DNA of 64,000 nucleotides from a bacterium SCSIO 12741 (GTDB lineage Bacteria; Bacteroidota; Bacteroidia; Flavobacteriales_G; Salibacteraceae). This document shows, in pieces, positions 33,371 to 42,911 of this stretch. The position numbers and the translations under genes are program-made. The stretch is from positions 4,526,594 through 4,590,593 of the forward strand of contig CP073749.1 of NCBI GenBank assembly GCA_024398055.1, given 5' to 3'. Positions within the stretch are counted from its first letter, which is position 1, and the number at the start of each line of letters is the position of its first letter. The notes beneath the pieces are model-generated. The model was not told the DNA's origin. It was given only the letters and a program-made list of their open reading frames with translations, and ran no database searches.

Positions 33371-33474
33371 TATCGATGGAGTAAGCGTGTGCTCAATGGG
33401 ATTTACCGAGATTTTAGCCGCTGACTTTTCGATTTAAAAAAAAGAAGTAACATTGCACCAGCAAAAACACAGAA

Positions 33475-33537
33475 GTGAATTTTAGAACCCTACATCATCA
33501 TCATTTTCATCCTTGCATTCAGGCGAGCTGGAAATGA
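33475..33537 (+). CDS. hisL: Histidine operon leader peptide
   Basis: A 20-codon ORF from a GTG at 33475 to TGA at 33535-33537, encoding MNFRTL-HHHHFHP-CIQASWK. Five of six consecutive codons (33493-33510) are CAT, interrupted by one Phe. It lies 105 bases before hisG and directly ahead of a terminator. It is the sensor of a transcription attenuator: ribosomes stall at the His codons when charged tRNA-His is scarce. The start codon is inferred; the open frame and His run are seen directly. Confidence 0.87.
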   Translation: MNFRTLHHHHFHPCIQASWK

Positions 33538-33595
33538 TTTGTAGGTAAATCAATGATATTTCAAAACCCGTCTGAGTACATCAGGCGGGTTTTTT
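33518..33595 (+). promoter_or_regulatory. his attenuator: terminator and competing antiterminator
   Basis: The terminator stem pairs AAAACCCG and CTGA (33563-33575) with TCAG and CGGGTTTT (33581-33593), followed by T residues. The text TCAGGCG of its 3' arm (33581-33587) is repeated exactly at 33519-33525 inside the leader ORF, so this upstream copy can pair with CGTCTGA of the 5' arm and prevent the terminator. A ribosome stalled at the His codons leaves 33519-33525 free (read-through); one that reaches the stop codon at 33535 covers it (termination). Confidence 0.83.
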
Positions 33596-33642
33596 ATTTG
33601 CTGAAATTCCCAATCGGTTTACTCAGGCACTAAAGCCCAAAA

Positions 33643-34500
33643 ATGAGTAAACTAAAAATCGCCATCCAAAAACAAGGTCGGCTGAATGAAGGATCGCTGC
33701 AGCTTTTGAAAAGCTGCGGAATTTCCATCAGCAACGGAAACGACCAGCTCAAAGTGAGTGTAGCCAATTTTCCGATTGAAATTCTCTACCTCCGCAATTC
33801 TGACATTCCCCAATACATCGAAGATGGGGTGGCCGATATTGGAATTATTGGGGAGAACCTACTGTTTGAAAAGCAGGGTAAAGTAGAATTGGTGGAGCGC
33901 TTGGGCTTTTCCAAATGCAAGGTCTGCCTGGCAGTTCCGAAGGATGTTGTCGAAGATTCGGTGACCTACTTTGAAGGAAAGAAAATAGCGACCTCCTACC
34001 CCAAAACACTGCAACATTACCTGGCTCAAAATGGGGTCAATGCGGAAATCCATACCATCTCTGGGTCGGTGGAGATTGCTCCTAACATTGGATTGGCTGA
34101 TGGCATTTGCGACATCGTTAGTTCGGGAAGTACGCTCTTTAAAAACGGCTTGAGAAAAACGCAAACCATTCTTTCATCAGAAGCGGTTTTGGTCAAATCC
34201 CCCAAGTTATCGGACGAGAAGGAAGCCGTATTGGACAAGCTTTTGTTTCGCCTTCGAGCGGTACTGAGAGCCCGAAATTCCAAATACATTCTGCTCAATG
34301 TTCCCAATGAAAAAATTGAACAGGTGGCTGAGATTCTACCGGTTATGAAAAGCCCTACGATTTTGCCCTTGGCCCAGGAAGGATGGAGTTCGCTACACTC
34401 AGTCATCGATGAAAGCACCTTTTGGGAAGTCATAGATGAGCTTAAAGCGGCTGGAGCTGAGGATATTTTGATTGTTCCTATCGATAAAATGGTGAGGTGA
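33643..34500 (+). CDS. hisG: ATP phosphoribosyltransferase
   Basis: First step of histidine synthesis: ATP plus PRPP gives phosphoribosyl-ATP. 285 residues, the long form with a C-terminal ACT-like regulatory domain (about 215-285), which normally gives feedback inhibition by histidine. Family motifs include LKIAIQKQGRLNEGS, IEDGVADIGIIGENLL and the PRPP loop region DGICDIVSSGSTL. It follows the attenuator, and its TGA overlaps the ATG of hisD. Confidence 0.96.
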   Translation: MSKLKIAIQKQGRLNEGSLQLLKSCGISISNGNDQLKVSVANFPIEILYLRNSDIPQYIEDGVADIGIIGENLLFEKQGKVELVERLGFSKCKVCLAVPKDVVEDSVTYFEGKKIATSYPKTLQHYLAQNGVNAEIHTISGSVEIAPNIGLADGICDIVSSGSTLFKNGLRKTQTILSSEAVLVKSPKLSDEKEAVLDKLLFRLRAVLRARNSKYILLNVPNEKIEQVAEILPVMKSPTILPLAQEGWSSLHSVIDESTFWEVIDELKAAGAEDILIVPIDKMVR

Positions 34501-35788
34501 TGGAAAAACTGAAAAATCCCAAACAGCAGGAGTGGTCTTCTCTCACTGAACGGCCTCGAATGGAAAATGACAGTCTGAACGCGGTAGTAAGCGATATCCT
34601 AAACACGGTGCGGCGGGAAAAGGACGCTGCCCTCATCCAATATGCCTGGCAATTTGACCAGACTCGCCTGGAATCATTGATTGTGAGCAAAAACGAAATT
34701 CAAGAGGCAGTTAACCAAGTTTCAGATGAACTAAAAGCAGCCATTCAATTGGCTCGTAAGAATATCGAAACCTTTCACACTTCACAGCGTCTGGACGAAG
34801 AAAAAATCGAGACCACCCCGGTGTAACCTGCTGGCGTAAAAGCGTAGCCATCGAAAAAGTGGGACTTTATATTCCGGGTGGATCTGCTCCCCTATTCTCG
34901 ACCATTTTGATGTTGGGAGTGCCTGCGCAAATTGCCGGATGTCAGGAGGTGATTCTGTGCACTCCTTGCGATTCTAATGGGAAGATCAATCCTGCCATTC
35001 TCTATACGGCTAACCTCTTAGGCATTGAAAAAATCTACAAGGTAGGAGGCGCTCAAGCGATTGCCGCCATGGCTTATGGCACGGAGAGTATTCCTCAGGT
35101 CTACAAGATATTTGGTCCTGGCAACCAGTATGTAACCAAAGCCAAGGAGCTGATTCAGCAAAACGGTATTGCCATTGATTTACCAGCAGGTCCCAGCGAA
35201 GTGTTGATCATTGCCGATGAATCCGGCAATCCTGAATTTATCGCAGCTGATTTGCTCTCGCAAGCTGAGCATGGTCCGGATAGTCAAGTGTTTTTGTTGT
35301 CTGCTCAGGAAGAAGTCCTGGATCAAACAATGAAAGCTCTCGAGGGACAACTCCGGGGTTTGCCACGAAAATCCATTGCTGAGCAGGCTTTAAAAAACAG
35401 CAAAGCTCTACTTCTGAATAGCATGGTCGAGTGCTTTCAATTCAGCAATCAATATGCTCCGGAACACCTCATTATGGCATCCGAAAAGGCGGATTTATAC
35501 ATACCGCTGATCACCAATGCCGGATCCGTTTTTCTGGGCAACTACAGCTGCGAAAGTGCCGGTGATTATGCCAGTGGAACAAATCACACGCTACCCACTA
35601 ATGGTTTCGCCAAAAACTACAGCGGCGTTTCGCTCGACAGCTTTGTGAAGAAAATCACCTTTCAAGAGATAAGTCCCAAGGGCATTCAAAATCTGGGTAA
35701 GGCCATTGAAACCATGGCCGAAGCCGAACAATTGTTTGCCCACAAAAATGCGGTAACCCTCCGCCTAAAAAAGCTGCAAGATGTTTGA
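34500..35788 (+). pseudogene. hisD: Histidinol dehydrogenase, frameshifted at a C4 run
   Basis: Catalyses the last two oxidations, histidinol to histidine. The first part (34500-34826) ends ...EEKIETTP then a stop; the second (from about 34820) continues the family text VTCWRKSVAIEKVGLYIPGGSAP. Adding one C to the run at 34816-34819 gives TTPGVTCWRKS and 429 residues, the standard length. [23 protein letters not shown] and QAEHGPDSQ are conserved, the last with a zinc-binding His region. A truly broken hisD would make the organism a histidine auxotroph despite an otherwise complete, attenuator-regulated operon, so a sequencing error is likely. Confidence 0.93.
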
Positions 35789-36806
35789 TATTGACCAAGC
35801 TATCCGAAAGAATATTAGGGAACTCAAGTCCTATAGTTCAGCCCGGGACGAATTTTGTGGGGACGCTTCCATTTGGCTGGATGCCAATGAGAATCCCTAC
35901 GAAACGGACATGAACCGTTATCCGGATCCCTACCAAACAGAATTAAAAAAGGCCGTTGCGAAGCTCAAAAAGGTAGAGGAAAATCAAATCTTTATTGGTC
36001 ACGGTAGCGATGAAATAATCGATCTGCTATTCCGGGCCTTTTGCGAACCCCAGGTAGACAAGGCCTACCTCTTCCCTCCTACTTATGGGATGTACGCCAT
36101 TGGAGCACAGATCAATCAGGTGGAAATAGTTGAATTGCCCCTGCTCCAAGATTTCGACTTGCCCGAATGGTCCCAAATTCAGTCTATAATACGGTCAAAG
36201 GGTTTGCTCTTTATGTGCTCACCAAACAATCCAACAGGAACGGCCTATTCCTTGAATTCTATTCAAGAACTGGCCTCACAATTCCCAGGAATTGTAGCGG
36301 TGGATGAAGCCTACATCGATTTTTCCGAGACTCCCAGTGCTATCAGTTTATTGAGTAAAATTCCCAATCTCGTGGTCCTTCAAACTTTGAGTAAAGCCTA
36401 TGGTTTAGCGGGTTTACGCGTTGGCATGGCCTTTACTCATCCGGAAATCATCAAGGTGCTCAATAAAATCAAACCACCCTACAACATCAATACCCTGAGT
36501 CAACAAATGGGCCTTAAGGCTCTTGAAAATCGTGAGATCGTACTCCAACAAATTCAGGAAATTAAACACCAGCGTGAGTGGCTTAGAAATGAATTAGAAA
36601 TACTTCCTCAGGTTGTGAAGGTACATCCCTCGGAGGCCAATTTTCTTCTGGTTCAATTCGAGGATACCTCCACCAACTTTAAGGCCCTACTCGATCATGG
36701 GATTGTGGTACGAAACAGAGCCCGCCAGGTGGAAGGTTGTTTGCGCATCACCATAGGCACTCCTGATCAAAACAAAACCCTACTTCAAACCCTAAAATCA
36801 CTGTAA
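35781..36806 (+). CDS. hisC: Histidinol-phosphate aminotransferase
   Basis: PLP-dependent class I/II aminotransferase converting imidazole acetol phosphate to histidinol phosphate. 341 residues. WLDANENPY near the start, CSPNNPTG, VDEAYIDFS and the PLP-lysine region TLSKAYGLAGLRVG are all present. The ATG overlaps the end of hisD, as throughout this operon. Confidence 0.96.
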   Translation: MFDIDQAIRKNIRELKSYSSARDEFCGDASIWLDANENPYETDMNRYPDPYQTELKKAVAKLKKVEENQIFIGHGSDEIIDLLFRAFCEPQVDKAYLFPPTYGMYAIGAQINQVEIVELPLLQDFDLPEWSQIQSIIRSKGLLFMCSPNNPTGTAYSLNSIQELASQFPGIVAVDEAYIDFSETPSAISLLSKIPNLVVLQTLSKAYGLAGLRVGMAFTHPEIIKVLNKIKPPYNINTLSQQMGLKALENREIVLQQIQEIKHQREWLRNELEILPQVVKVHPSEANFLLVQFEDTSTNFKALLDHGIVVRNRARQVEGCLRITIGTPDQNKTLLQTLKSL

Positions 36807-37895
36807 ATGAAAAAAGTACTCTTTATCGATCGAGATGGAACTCTGGTCATAGAACCTCCTATCGATTATCAATTGGATAGCCTCGAAAAATTGGAGTTTT
36901 ACCCAGGCGTATTTCAAGGTTTATCCCAAATAGCCCGGGAATTGGATTATGAACTCGTAATGGTTACCAATCAAGATGGACTTGGCACTCCCTCTTTTCC
37001 AGAAGAAGATTTTTGGCCTGCCCAAAACAAGATCATTCAAACCTTTAGAAACGAAGGAGTTGAATTTGCTGAAGTACTTATTGACCGAAGCCTACCCGAA
37101 GAAAATGCTCCTACCCGGAAACCCGGCATTGGCCTGCTTCAGAAGTACATTTACGGCCATTACGACCTGGAGAACTCCTATGTTATTGGAGACCGAATTA
37201 CGGACATGGAATTGGCCCAAAACCTAAAAGCCCGGGGAATCTACCTCGGTGAATCCAACGAACTCGCCGAATTGAGCACTCACAGCTGGCAAACTATTTA
37301 CCAATACCTCAAGGATAAACCCAGAACAGCACAGGTGCAACGATCGACAAAGGAGACGAGCATTTCTATCTCCCTCAATCTTGACGGTCAAGGTAAGTCC
37401 AAAATTTCCACCGGCATCGGATTTTACGATCACTTACTGGAACAACTGGCCAAACATGGAAAGTTGGATCTCACTATTCAATCCCAAGGGGATTTACACG
37501 TGGATAATCACCACACGATAGAGGATGTTGCTCTTGCTTTAGGAGAAACCTTTCGCAAAGCCTTGGGAAGTAAAAAGGGCATCGAACGGTATGGATTCCT
37601 CTTGCCCATGGATGATTGCCTGGCCCAAGTAGCCATCGACTTTGGAGGAAGGCCCTGGTTGGTTTGGGAGGCTGAGTTTAATCGTGAAAAAGTGGGAGAA
37701 ATGCCTACCGAGATGTTTGTTCACTTCTTCAAATCCTTTAGTGATTCAGCTCAATGCAACCTCAACATAAAAGCAGAGGGACAAAATGAGCATCATAAGA
37801 TTGAAGGCATTTTCAAGGCCCTGGCCAAGGCCATCAGAATGGCTGTCAAACGAACGAACGATTACTCCATCCCCAGCACCAAAGGACAGTTATGA
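36807..37895 (+). CDS. hisB: Bifunctional histidinol-phosphatase / imidazoleglycerol-phosphate dehydratase
   Basis: 362 residues. The N-terminal HAD-type phosphatase domain (about 1-165) starts [10 protein letters not shown] with the nucleophile DxD and has the zinc-loop and [10 protein letters not shown]. The C-terminal dehydratase domain (about 175-362) shows [31 protein letters not shown] and the matching C-terminal [16 protein letters not shown] manganese-binding repeat. It performs steps 6 and 8 of the pathway. It starts immediately after the hisC stop. Confidence 0.96.
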
Positions 37896-38470
37896 TTGCT
37901 TTAGTAAAATACAACGCCGGAAATCTTAGTTCGGTTCGAAATGCGCTTTCAAGATTGGGCTGTGAATGCCTAATATCTGATGACGCCTCAATTCTACAAC
38001 GTGCTGATAAAGTCATCTTTCCAGGAGTTGGTGAAGCCAGTTCCGCTATGCGAAGTCTACGAAACGCCGGATTGGATCGAACGATCCCTTCTCTGATCCA
38101 ACCTACTTTGGGAATATGTCTGGGACTTCAACTGATGTGTCAACGCAGTGAAGAAGGAAATACAGATGGCCTTGGTCTATTTGACACTGAAGTGAAGCGT
38201 TTTCCCTCAAGGGATATTGTACCACACATGGGTTGGAATAATCTATCGCACATGGAAGGCTCGCTGTTTCAGGACATCCAAATTCAGGATGACGTATACT
38301 TCGTGCACAGCTATTACGCCGAACCCTGCGATCAAACTGTGGCTCTCGGAGAATACATCGTCCCCTTTAGTGCCAGCTTGCAAAAGGACAACTTTTACGC
38401 CACCCAGTTTCACCCTGAAAAGTCAGGACCTGTAGGCGAGCAAATCCTCAAAAACTTCCTGGAATTATGA
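37892..38470 (+). CDS. hisH: Imidazole glycerol phosphate synthase, glutaminase subunit
   Basis: 192 residues, class I glutamine amidotransferase. The nucleophile lies in [10 protein letters not shown] and the His-Glu pair in [18 protein letters not shown] is also conserved. It supplies ammonia to HisF in the same complex. ATG overlaps the hisB stop. Confidence 0.96.
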
Positions 38471-39180
38471 GAATTATACCTGCCATTGACATAATAAATG
38501 GAAAATGCGTGCGACTTTCTCAGGGAGATTACCAAACCCAAAAGGTCTACCATGAAGACCCACTGGAAGTGGCCAAACAGTTTGAAGCCAGCGGTATTCA
38601 ATACCTACACTTGGTGGATTTAGACGGAGCCCGAGCGAAGCGACTGATTAACCATTCCGTTTTAGAAAAAATCTGCACCCAAACTGAATTGCACGTTGAT
38701 TTTGGGGGCGGTGTTCAATCCCATCAAGATATCCAAATGGCCTTCGAATGCGGAGCACAACAGGTAACTGCAGGAAGCATCGCCGTGAAAAATCCGCTCC
38801 TTTTTCTGGATTGGATCAACCAATACGGAAAGGACAAAATCATACTCGGTGCCGATTGCCACAACCGAAGAATAGCCACCCACGGTTGGTTAGAAAATTC
38901 TGATTGGGAAGTAGTGGACTTTATCCAACAGTACAAGCATCAAGGGGTAGAATATGTCATTTGCACCGACATTGAGAAGGACGGAATGCTGGCCGGTAGC
39001 TCCTTTGAGCTCTACCAGGAGATCATTGAGAAAACCCAGGTAAAGCTGATAGCCAGCGGAGGCGTATCCTCCCTATCCGACCTAAAGCAATTGAAAGAAA
39101 TGGGCTGCGAAGGAGCCATCATCGGCAAGGCCATTTATGAAGGAAACATCACCTTAAAAGAATTGGAAACATTATGCTAA
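38467..39180 (+). CDS. hisA: ProFAR isomerase
   Basis: 237 residues, TIM barrel. [22 protein letters not shown] contains the first catalytic Asp, and [15 protein letters not shown] the second; [25 protein letters not shown] is the phosphate-binding end. It isomerises the phosphoribosylformimino intermediate. Overlaps hisH by four bases. Confidence 0.96.
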
Positions 39181-39941
39181 AAAAGAGAATTATACCCTGC
39201 TTAGACATCCGGAATGGACGAACTGTGAAAGGGACGAATTTCGTGGGAATTCAAGATGCTGGCGATCCCGTGGAGATGGCTCGACGTTATGTTCAAAACG
39301 GTGCAGATGAGCTTGTTTTATTAGACATCACAGCCACCGTGGAAAAGCGAAAAACCAGGGTTGAATGGGTCCAACGAGTAGCTCGGGAGATTAGCGTTCC
39401 ATTTACCGTTGGTGGTGGCATAAATACGCTAGAAGACGCTCGTATCCTCATCCAGGCCGGTGCCGATAAAATCAGCTTGAATTCTGCCGCAGTTCAACAT
39501 CCTAAACTCATTCAGGAGATGGCCCGTGAATTTGGCCAACAATGCGTTGTAGTTGCCATTGACACCCAATATGTTCGGGATAAATGGAAAGTATTTGTCC
39601 ACGGCGGCCGCACTGAGACTGCGCTTGAAACCGTATCCTGGGCTCAACAGGCCGAGAAATTAGGTGCTGGTGAACTTCTCCTGACTTCCATCAACAACGA
39701 TGGCACCAAAACAGGATTTGCCTTAAACATAACCCATCAGGTTTCTCAAAGCGTATCCATTCCGGTCATTGCCTCCGGAGGTGCTGGTTCTCTGGAACAT
39801 TTCAAAACCGTTTTTGAACAGACCCGAGCCACAGGTGGACTGGCCGCAGGAATCTTTCACTATGGTGAGATTGCCATAGCCGAGTTAAAGAACTATTTGT
39901 CCGAAGAAAAAATCGCCATAAGGCAGAACTATAAAAGATGA
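39174..39941 (+). CDS. hisF: Imidazole glycerol phosphate synthase, cyclase subunit
   Basis: 255 residues, TIM barrel. [18 protein letters not shown] has the catalytic Asp, and [14 protein letters not shown] the second; [13 protein letters not shown] binds phosphate. It partners HisH and also yields AICAR for purine synthesis. Overlaps the hisA stop by seven bases. Confidence 0.96.
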
Positions 39942-40537
39942 ATATAGATTTTGAAAAAGGGGATGGATTGGTTCCCGTAATCGTTCAAAACAATCAAACC
40001 CTACAGGTGCTTATGCTGGGTTACATGGATGAAGAGGCCTTTGAGGTAACCCAGGCTACTCGACGCGTCACTTTTTTTAGCCGCAGCAAAAATCGACTTT
40101 GGACCAAGGGACAACAATCCAGGAACTATTTATTGGTCGATGAAATTCGGGTAGACTGTGACCGCGATACCCTCTTAATTAAAGCCACACCCCAAGGGCC
40201 CACCTGCCATACCGGTAGCACCTCCTGTTTTGGAGAAGAAACCAGCAAAGGATTTATCTATGAGCTGGAAAAAACCATTCACCAGCGAATCGAAGCAAAC
40301 GACCGTGAATCGTATACCAACAAACTCTATCGAAGCGGGATCAACAAAGTGGCTCAGAAAGTAGGTGAAGAGGCCGTGGAGTTGATCATAGAAGCCAAAG
40401 ACCACAACGACGAATTATTCAAAAACGAGGCGGCCGATTTGCTTTACCACTATCTGATCCTGCTGAAGGCAAAGGGGTTTTGTGTTGGGGACGTTGAAGA
40501 GGTTTTGTTGGGACGGAGTATACCGACTAAACTGTAA
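39938..40537 (+). CDS. hisIE: Phosphoribosyl-AMP cyclohydrolase / phosphoribosyl-ATP pyrophosphatase
   Basis: 199 residues with both domains fused. The HisI part has LGYMDEEAFEVT and the metal-binding CDRDTLLIKATPQGPTCH; the HisE part (about 110-199) has VGEEAVELIIEAK and NEAADLLYHYLILL. It performs steps 2 and 3. Last gene of the operon; a terminator follows after 23 bases. Confidence 0.96.
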   Translation: MNIDFEKGDGLVPVIVQNNQTLQVLMLGYMDEEAFEVTQATRRVTFFSRSKNRLWTKGQQSRNYLLVDEIRVDCDRDTLLIKATPQGPTCHTGSTSCFGEETSKGFIYELEKTIHQRIEANDRESYTNKLYRSGINKVAQKVGEEAVELIIEAKDHNDELFKNEAADLLYHYLILLKAKGFCVGDVEEVLLGRSIPTKL

Positions 40538-42187: not shown

Positions 42188-42911
42188 TTAGTTTCTCCCT
42201 TGTTCTTCAGGGTATAAAGAAATCAATGTGTCACTTTGCCAAACCTGCTTGTGATTAACCTCCAAGGCCGAAAGCTTACCCGTGAAGGCTGCTCCAGTAT
42301 CTACATTCCAAACATTTGCTCTTTGCCAAGGTGTATCCACTTGCCATTCTATAGTTGGTGTATGCCCGATAAATATCTCTTTATAATGACCCAATCGCTT
42401 TGGATAATCCCTATCTCCTATTAAAACTCTGTTGTGAATGGCACGGGCGACCTCCCATAGCGTTCGATCCCAATAATAATTTGATGCATAATGTTCTTTT
42501 TTGGGCCCATGCATTGAGGAGAAACCAGCGTGGATGAACAAACGGTTCTCTGCATCAACATAAAAATTCTGTAGTTCATCCAAAAACTGAATGTGAGCTT
42601 CTTTAGATGCACTCCCATAACCTGCGTAGCTTTCAACGGTAGCCTGCCCCCACTGGTCATCCATATAGAATTTGGATCTCCGGATTTAAGCCATTGGCAT
42701 AACCATACATCATGATTTCCACGAATAAACTGGCATTTGTAATGAGTTTTTAGCTCAAGTAAAAAATCAATGACCTGAGCAGATTCACTCCACCCGTCAA
42801 CATAGTCGCCCAAAAAAATTAACTCATCGTCCTTCTGAAGATCAATTCTACCTATCAATTGGGTCAGGGCCTTTAGCCCCCATGAATATCACCAAAAACC
42901 AATGTTCTCAT
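42188..42911 (-). pseudogene. Calcineurin-like metallophosphatase, two frameshifts at G5 runs
   Basis: Reading from the ATG at 42911, which overlaps the kptA stop as ATGA, gives MRTLVFGDIHGG and then a stop. Adding one G at 42877-42881 gives GDIHGGLKALTQLIGRIDLQKDDELIFLGDYVDGW; adding one at 42647-42651 joins MTSGG to QATVESYAGYG. The result is 241 residues with the family motifs GDIHG, GDYVDGW, RGNHD, HAGF and GHTP. Such enzymes hydrolyse phosphoesters, including dinucleotide polyphosphates; the substrate here is unknown, but the context suggests phosphates produced by ADP-ribose or RNA processing. Confidence 0.88.

Follow-up and report, generated by a model that had tools for sequence, protein, structure and literature searches.

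A histidine operon attenuator in Bacteroidota with a conserved pairing between the terminator and the hisG start region

The his operon of the bacterium SCSIO 12741 is preceded by a leader in which one RNA segment (segment 3, the 5′ arm and loop of a transcription terminator) is common to three competing helices. The attenuation part of this leader is of an ordinary, known kind; the new part is the third helix (3:5), in which segment 3 pairs with a short segment (segment 5) that closely precedes the hisG start codon. The 3:5 helix is well supported by the sequence comparisons described below, from which we infer an effect on hisG translation. We lean toward a ribosome-mediated his attenuator in which segment 3 has three competing partners and the 3:5 pairing adds translational control. 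Coordinates are positions in the window, the whole 64,000-nucleotide stretch of DNA that was analyzed; features are on its forward strand unless stated otherwise.

The leader peptide ORF (MNFRTLHHHHFHPCIQASWK, 33475-33537) has 20 codons, with a GTG start at 33475 and a TGA stop at 33535-33537; relatives have ATG at the same position and in the same frame (60-locus alignment). Its regulatory codons are CAT CAT CAT CAT TTT CAT (33493-33510), and a run of four His codons occurs once in the window versus 0.14 times expected by chance. A short ORF rich in codons for the amino acid of the pathway, characteristic of leader-peptide attenuators, thus stands before the biosynthetic operon. The word TCAGGCG at 33519-33525, inside the leader ORF, is a copy of a word in the 3′ arm of the terminator (33581-33587); the 7-mer has nine copies across the window versus 4.9 expected, and the repeat taken alone is weak evidence. 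A preliminary description of this DNA had reported the ORF, the His codons, their positions, and the TCAGGCG repeat, all of which are borne out by direct reading of the sequence; missing from it were the GTG start, a competing pause hairpin (33489-33516 with 33523-33545), and the segment at 33618-33628, beyond the region it covered.

Promoters of Bacteroidota have the -7 consensus TAnnTTTG; a similar box (TAACATTG, 33448-33455), conserved ahead of the leader ORF across the 60 aligned loci, is the probable -7 box predicted for this operon. The first regulated gene, hisG (33643-34500; TIGR00070 and TIGR03455), has its start codon 49 nt downstream of the terminator and about 100 nt from the leader stop codon. 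The remainder of the operon (34500-40537) comprises hisD (frameshifted), hisC, hisB, hisH, hisA, hisF, and hisIE, giving the order hisG-D-C-B-H-A-F-IE, which ends at 40537. The hisD gene (34500-35788) is divided between two frames: a short C-run (accaccccggtgtaa) at about 34826 contains the end of the first ORF, and the remainder, in another frame, matches TIGR00069. The split is either a sequencing error or a real frameshift. A metallophosphatase-like gene (42188-42858, minus strand; named by eye from the sequence) is likewise in two overlapping frames, possibly through a second indel.

Regions upstream of hisG were gathered from genomes across the phylum, with minus-strand loci reoriented before leaders were counted, and helix covariation was scored on an alignment of 60 of these loci. 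Judged by covariation in this alignment, helices 1:2, 2:3, 3:4, and 3:5 all exist. The intrinsic terminator (3:4), located between the leader ORF and hisG, reads AAAACCCGTCTGA-GTACA-TCAGGCGGGTTTT (33563-33593), with a 13-bp stem, a 5-nt loop, and a T-run at 33590-33595; it consists of segment 3 (AAAACCCGTCTGAGTACA, 33563-33580) and segment 4 (TCAGGCGGGTTTT plus the U-tract, 33581-33595), and 95.5% of its cells are paired, with double changes at four pairs. The antiterminator (2:3) is formed by segment 2 (TTCAGGCG, 33518-33525), within the leader ORF, and positions 33569-33576. This pairing excludes the terminator and is kept by compensatory change: 94.2% of cells are paired, G-C has become A-U in 14 sequences, and six double changes map on the HisG tree. 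The pause, or anti-antiterminator, hairpin (1:2; 33489-33545, arms 33489-33516 and 33523-33545 in the minimum free energy fold) pairs the His codons with segment 2 and would occupy that segment in an untranslated leader; 80% of its cells are paired, and ten pairs have double changes. Slid controls for 3:4, 2:3, and 1:2 gave a far lower percentage of paired cells each time, and the fold of the window leader is 5.7 sd better than that of shuffled sequences. Equilibrium folding with blocked ribosome positions gave no 2:3 helix, the antiterminator being a transient, co-transcriptional structure.

The assignment of TCAGGCG as the antiterminator strand, made in the preliminary description, holds across the 60 relatives, in which 94% of cells preserve the pairs with 33569-33575 and compensatory changes occur. 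Alignment of relatives for His codons and covarying stems, suggested there as a check, finds the His codons, antiterminator, terminator, and pause hairpin conserved and covarying. The core of that reading, classic ribosome-mediated attenuation with a 2:3 antiterminator, therefore stands; it was incomplete in overlooking the conserved 3:5 helix.

Segment 5 (TTTACTCAGGC, 33618-33628) ends 14 nt before the hisG start codon and is complementary to 33570-33580, that is, to the upper part of the terminator 5′ arm plus the loop; in the window the helix has one C x U mismatch, at 33579. Among the 60 loci, 95.2% of cells are paired, versus 26-42% when the segment is slid, and five pairs have double changes (37 double-change cells in all). 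Mapped on the HisG tree, these amount to 18 independent compensatory double changes versus 0-2 in slid controls. Nine of the 18 are at terminator-loop positions, and eight of the loop changes are at 33577 and 33579, which are paired in neither 3:4 nor 2:3 and so cannot be by-products of the other helices. Coordinated changes include GAATAAA with TTTATTC (L114), GAGCAAA with TTTGCTC (L046 and L141), GAGTACA with TGTACTC (L131), and GAGACAA with TTGTTTC (L132).

Conservation around segment 5 is limited to its 11 pairing bases. Its distance to the start codon is nearly constant (median 15 nt, IQR 14-17), and the distance from the end of the terminator to segment 5 is variable (10 to 51 nt); this spacing, fixed relative to the start codon and free relative to the terminator, points to a role at hisG initiation and not at termination. 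The sequence between segment 5 and the ATG is 65% A. The segment that switches the attenuator is thus also tied, through a conserved helix, to the region around the start of the first gene, as expected of an attenuator that also controls translation.

With its ribosome steps modeled on the known mechanism, the system would operate as follows. When histidine is scarce, the ribosome on the leader would stall at the CAT codons and leave segment 2 (TTCAGGCG) free; 2:3 would form in place of the terminator, and RNA polymerase would continue. When histidine is plentiful, the ribosome would reach the stop codon and cover segment 2, so that 3:4 forms and transcription stops; with no translation at all, segment 2 would be held in hairpin 1:2 and the terminator would again form. 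In transcripts that have been read through, segment 3, including the loop, could pair with segment 5 and mask the hisG initiation region unless a stalled ribosome holds 2:3. The level of histidine would then set both the number of finished his mRNAs and the translation of hisG from each. Most likely, the 3:5 helix lowers hisG translation from mRNAs that have escaped the terminator once histidine becomes available.

The estimated energies in the window are -13.6 kcal/mol for 2:3, -13.8 for 3:5, and -19.5 for 3:4. In equilibrium models 3:4 wins in most sequences, with 3:5 winning in L021, L039, L066, and L124 and mostly in L085 and L146. Because 3:4 is favored at equilibrium, 3:5 would have to act kinetically via loop invasion, by forming a pseudoknot that involves the lower stem, or in trans. 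With segment 5 ending some 15 nt ahead of the start codon, about as far as a ribosome footprint reaches, strong masking is uncertain.

The option of action in trans amounts to an explanation in its own right, which we regard as unlikely but worth keeping in view: when histidine is plentiful, the released, terminated leader RNA would seed with its loop (GAGUAAA type) on segment 5 and block hisG translation or trigger decay of the full-length his mRNA. It needs the same base pairs, the loop bases are a natural seed, and the freedom in the distance from terminator to segment 5 suits it well. Terminated leaders that act in trans are known, for example rnTrpL of Sinorhizobium (cited in PMC7298713) and vsr217 from the malK 5′ UTR (PMC8265627). 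Copies of segment 5 at other genes would have hinted at targets in trans, an idea that was considered and rejected: in five relatives scanned, segment 5 near start codons was found solely at hisG, and the window genome has one other exact copy, inside an ORF. With no other gene start carrying segment 5 in these six genomes, the operon itself is the only target, which gives a local advantage to pairing in cis. Whether Flavobacteria and their relatives possess a five-segment his switch that controls both transcription and translation, by the cis route or through the released leader in trans, we consider evenly poised between true and false.

The pairing might instead aid expression, by shortening the path from leader to hisG and easing ribosome hand-over, protecting the read-through mRNA, or keeping segment 3 from refolding, with better hisG translation or longer mRNA life as the outcome; we think this doubtful. 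The A-rich start region downstream of segment 5 (65% A) would stay free, and a ribosome leaving a leader may start again at a gene close by (PMC4833913), but the roughly 100 nt between the leader stop codon and hisG are far above the 10-16 bp discussed for reinitiation.

Leaders of this type are widespread. Of the 118 Bacteroidota genomes sampled, 107 have a short His-rich ORF before hisG; the corresponding counts were 5.3 for dinucleotide shuffles and 3 for the reverse strand, and His leader peptides appear almost universal in Bacteroidota. Segment 5 is frequent in family f53, which its number of genomes and the named loci suggest to be the Flavobacteriaceae, and in f23 (Chryseobacterium-type), and it is also found in the family of the window (the window and L013), in L029, and in L138. 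Most other families, and L122, L130, L142, and L144 among the Flavobacteriaceae, have the leader and terminator without segment 5, so the 3:5 helix is inessential for attenuation. These many leaders would suit a plain three-way attenuator whose segment 5 is left over from the past or plays no part in regulation, an explanation we hold to be improbable given that 18 compensatory changes and conservation confined to 11 bases are hard to explain without selection on pairing. Least probable of all, segments 3 and 5 could be half-sites of a DNA-binding regulator and not an RNA helix, since an 11-bp inverted repeat would covary too, but the spacing between them varies widely (10-51 nt from the terminator end to segment 5), one of the halves is itself part of the terminator (its arm and loop), and the position of the other is tied to the start codon.

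Several loci depart from the common arrangement. A metagenome-assembled genome (L054, JAHDFT010000073) carries a tandem pair of complete His leaders, each with a terminator, between about 370 and 50 nt before hisG; segment 5 is absent. In family f42 (L180, L182, L196, L197, L198, and L199) His-rich leaders precede hisG with no recognizable terminator; they share a conserved word near TATGTTTCTACG and possibly use a different mode of control. The leader of L141 has one His codon left (MTFIQNYHRFYNCSQAI), and the antiterminator, terminator, and segment 5 are kept. In Chryseobacterium-type loci (L003, L057-L059, and others) the leader ends in runs of the HHYHHHLC type about 45 nt before the terminator, and the antiterminator word AGACGG follows the stop codon and is not inside the ORF. 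The HisG of the window is 82% identical to that of a Saprospiraceae metagenome-assembled genome, about 78% identical to those of Flavobacteriales, and only about 60% identical to those of the other three members of its own family that carry the gene, a family in which 31 of 35 genomes have no hisG match; the operon (33475-40537) and its attenuator may have been acquired horizontally.

Leader peptides were also found upstream of other amino acid operons, rich in Ile/Val before ilvD (L232) and in Thr/Ile before thrA (L237-L240); L237 and L232 carry terminators, and L238-L240 share a CCCYTWGGGGT-like word. By these sequences attenuation seems general in Flavobacteria. No helix like 3:5 was present in the three regions upstream of flavobacterial ilvD or thrA that had a detected terminator, a small sample.

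Leader-peptide attenuation of his operons has long been known in gammaproteobacteria. The leader of the window resembles hisL of E. coli and Salmonella (RF00514) in its His-codon leader peptide, its alternative pause, antiterminator, and terminator hairpins, and its position before hisG; it differs in sequence and in the order of its elements. In the E. coli hisL-hisG region, unlike the window, no pairing of the terminator arm or loop with the hisG start region was found. Against the window, the Rfam model RF00514 (His_leader) scores 33.1 bits (E 0.0008 in a 301-base search), below its gathering score of 49, and membership was rejected; at gathering thresholds Rfam gave no match except a tRNA elsewhere. 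A T-box or riboswitch was likewise rejected, since none of the known families that bind tRNA or a ligand was matched. Rfam is thus without a matching family, though His leader peptides are nearly universal in Bacteroidota.

Within the phylum, a study of Flavobacterium psychrophilum reports, before hisG in this species and other Flavobacteriaceae, a structured element that has no Rfam hit, together with strong clues of leader-peptide attenuation at amino acid operons (PMC9723704). The element shares gene and phylum with that of the window, but neither its segments nor any pairing with the start region of hisG are described in the main text of that study (PMC9723704). The statement in the preliminary description that such attenuation is less often described in Bacteroidota is fair as far as description goes, but the phylum uses the attenuator almost everywhere, and the F. 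psychrophilum hisG leader was already listed (PMC9723704). We found no description of the 3:5 pairing in the open-licence literature.

In Firmicutes, leader-peptide attenuation of his operons has been reported, and the attenuators of the his operon and of hisZ/hisS have His-codon runs and a terminator and antiterminator, as in the window (PMC9413887; PMC2965389). Some attenuators carry a structure that sequesters the ribosome-binding site in place of a terminator (PMC9413887). Attenuators in Firmicutes thus act on transcription or on translation, whereas the window has a terminator and a possible start-region pairing in one leader. Such a combination has a likeness in the trp leader of B. subtilis, in which TRAP governs a terminator and, in read-through mRNA, a hairpin that blocks the Shine-Dalgarno sequence, so that one leader controls transcription and then translation; that leader differs in being protein-sensed, in having no leader peptide, and in its unrelated sequence. 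The usual account of ribosome-mediated attenuation has two alternative helices, and the choice between them decides only whether the polymerase continues. Across much of Bacteroidota, a third, independent constraint acts on the 5′ arm and loop of the terminator, namely pairing with the region where the first gene starts. If the 3:5 helix controls translation, attenuators could also regulate mRNAs already past the point of termination, and the loops of terminators, commonly regarded as filler, can have regulatory roles; the 3:5 pairing, absent from the textbook attenuator, may provide a second control point.
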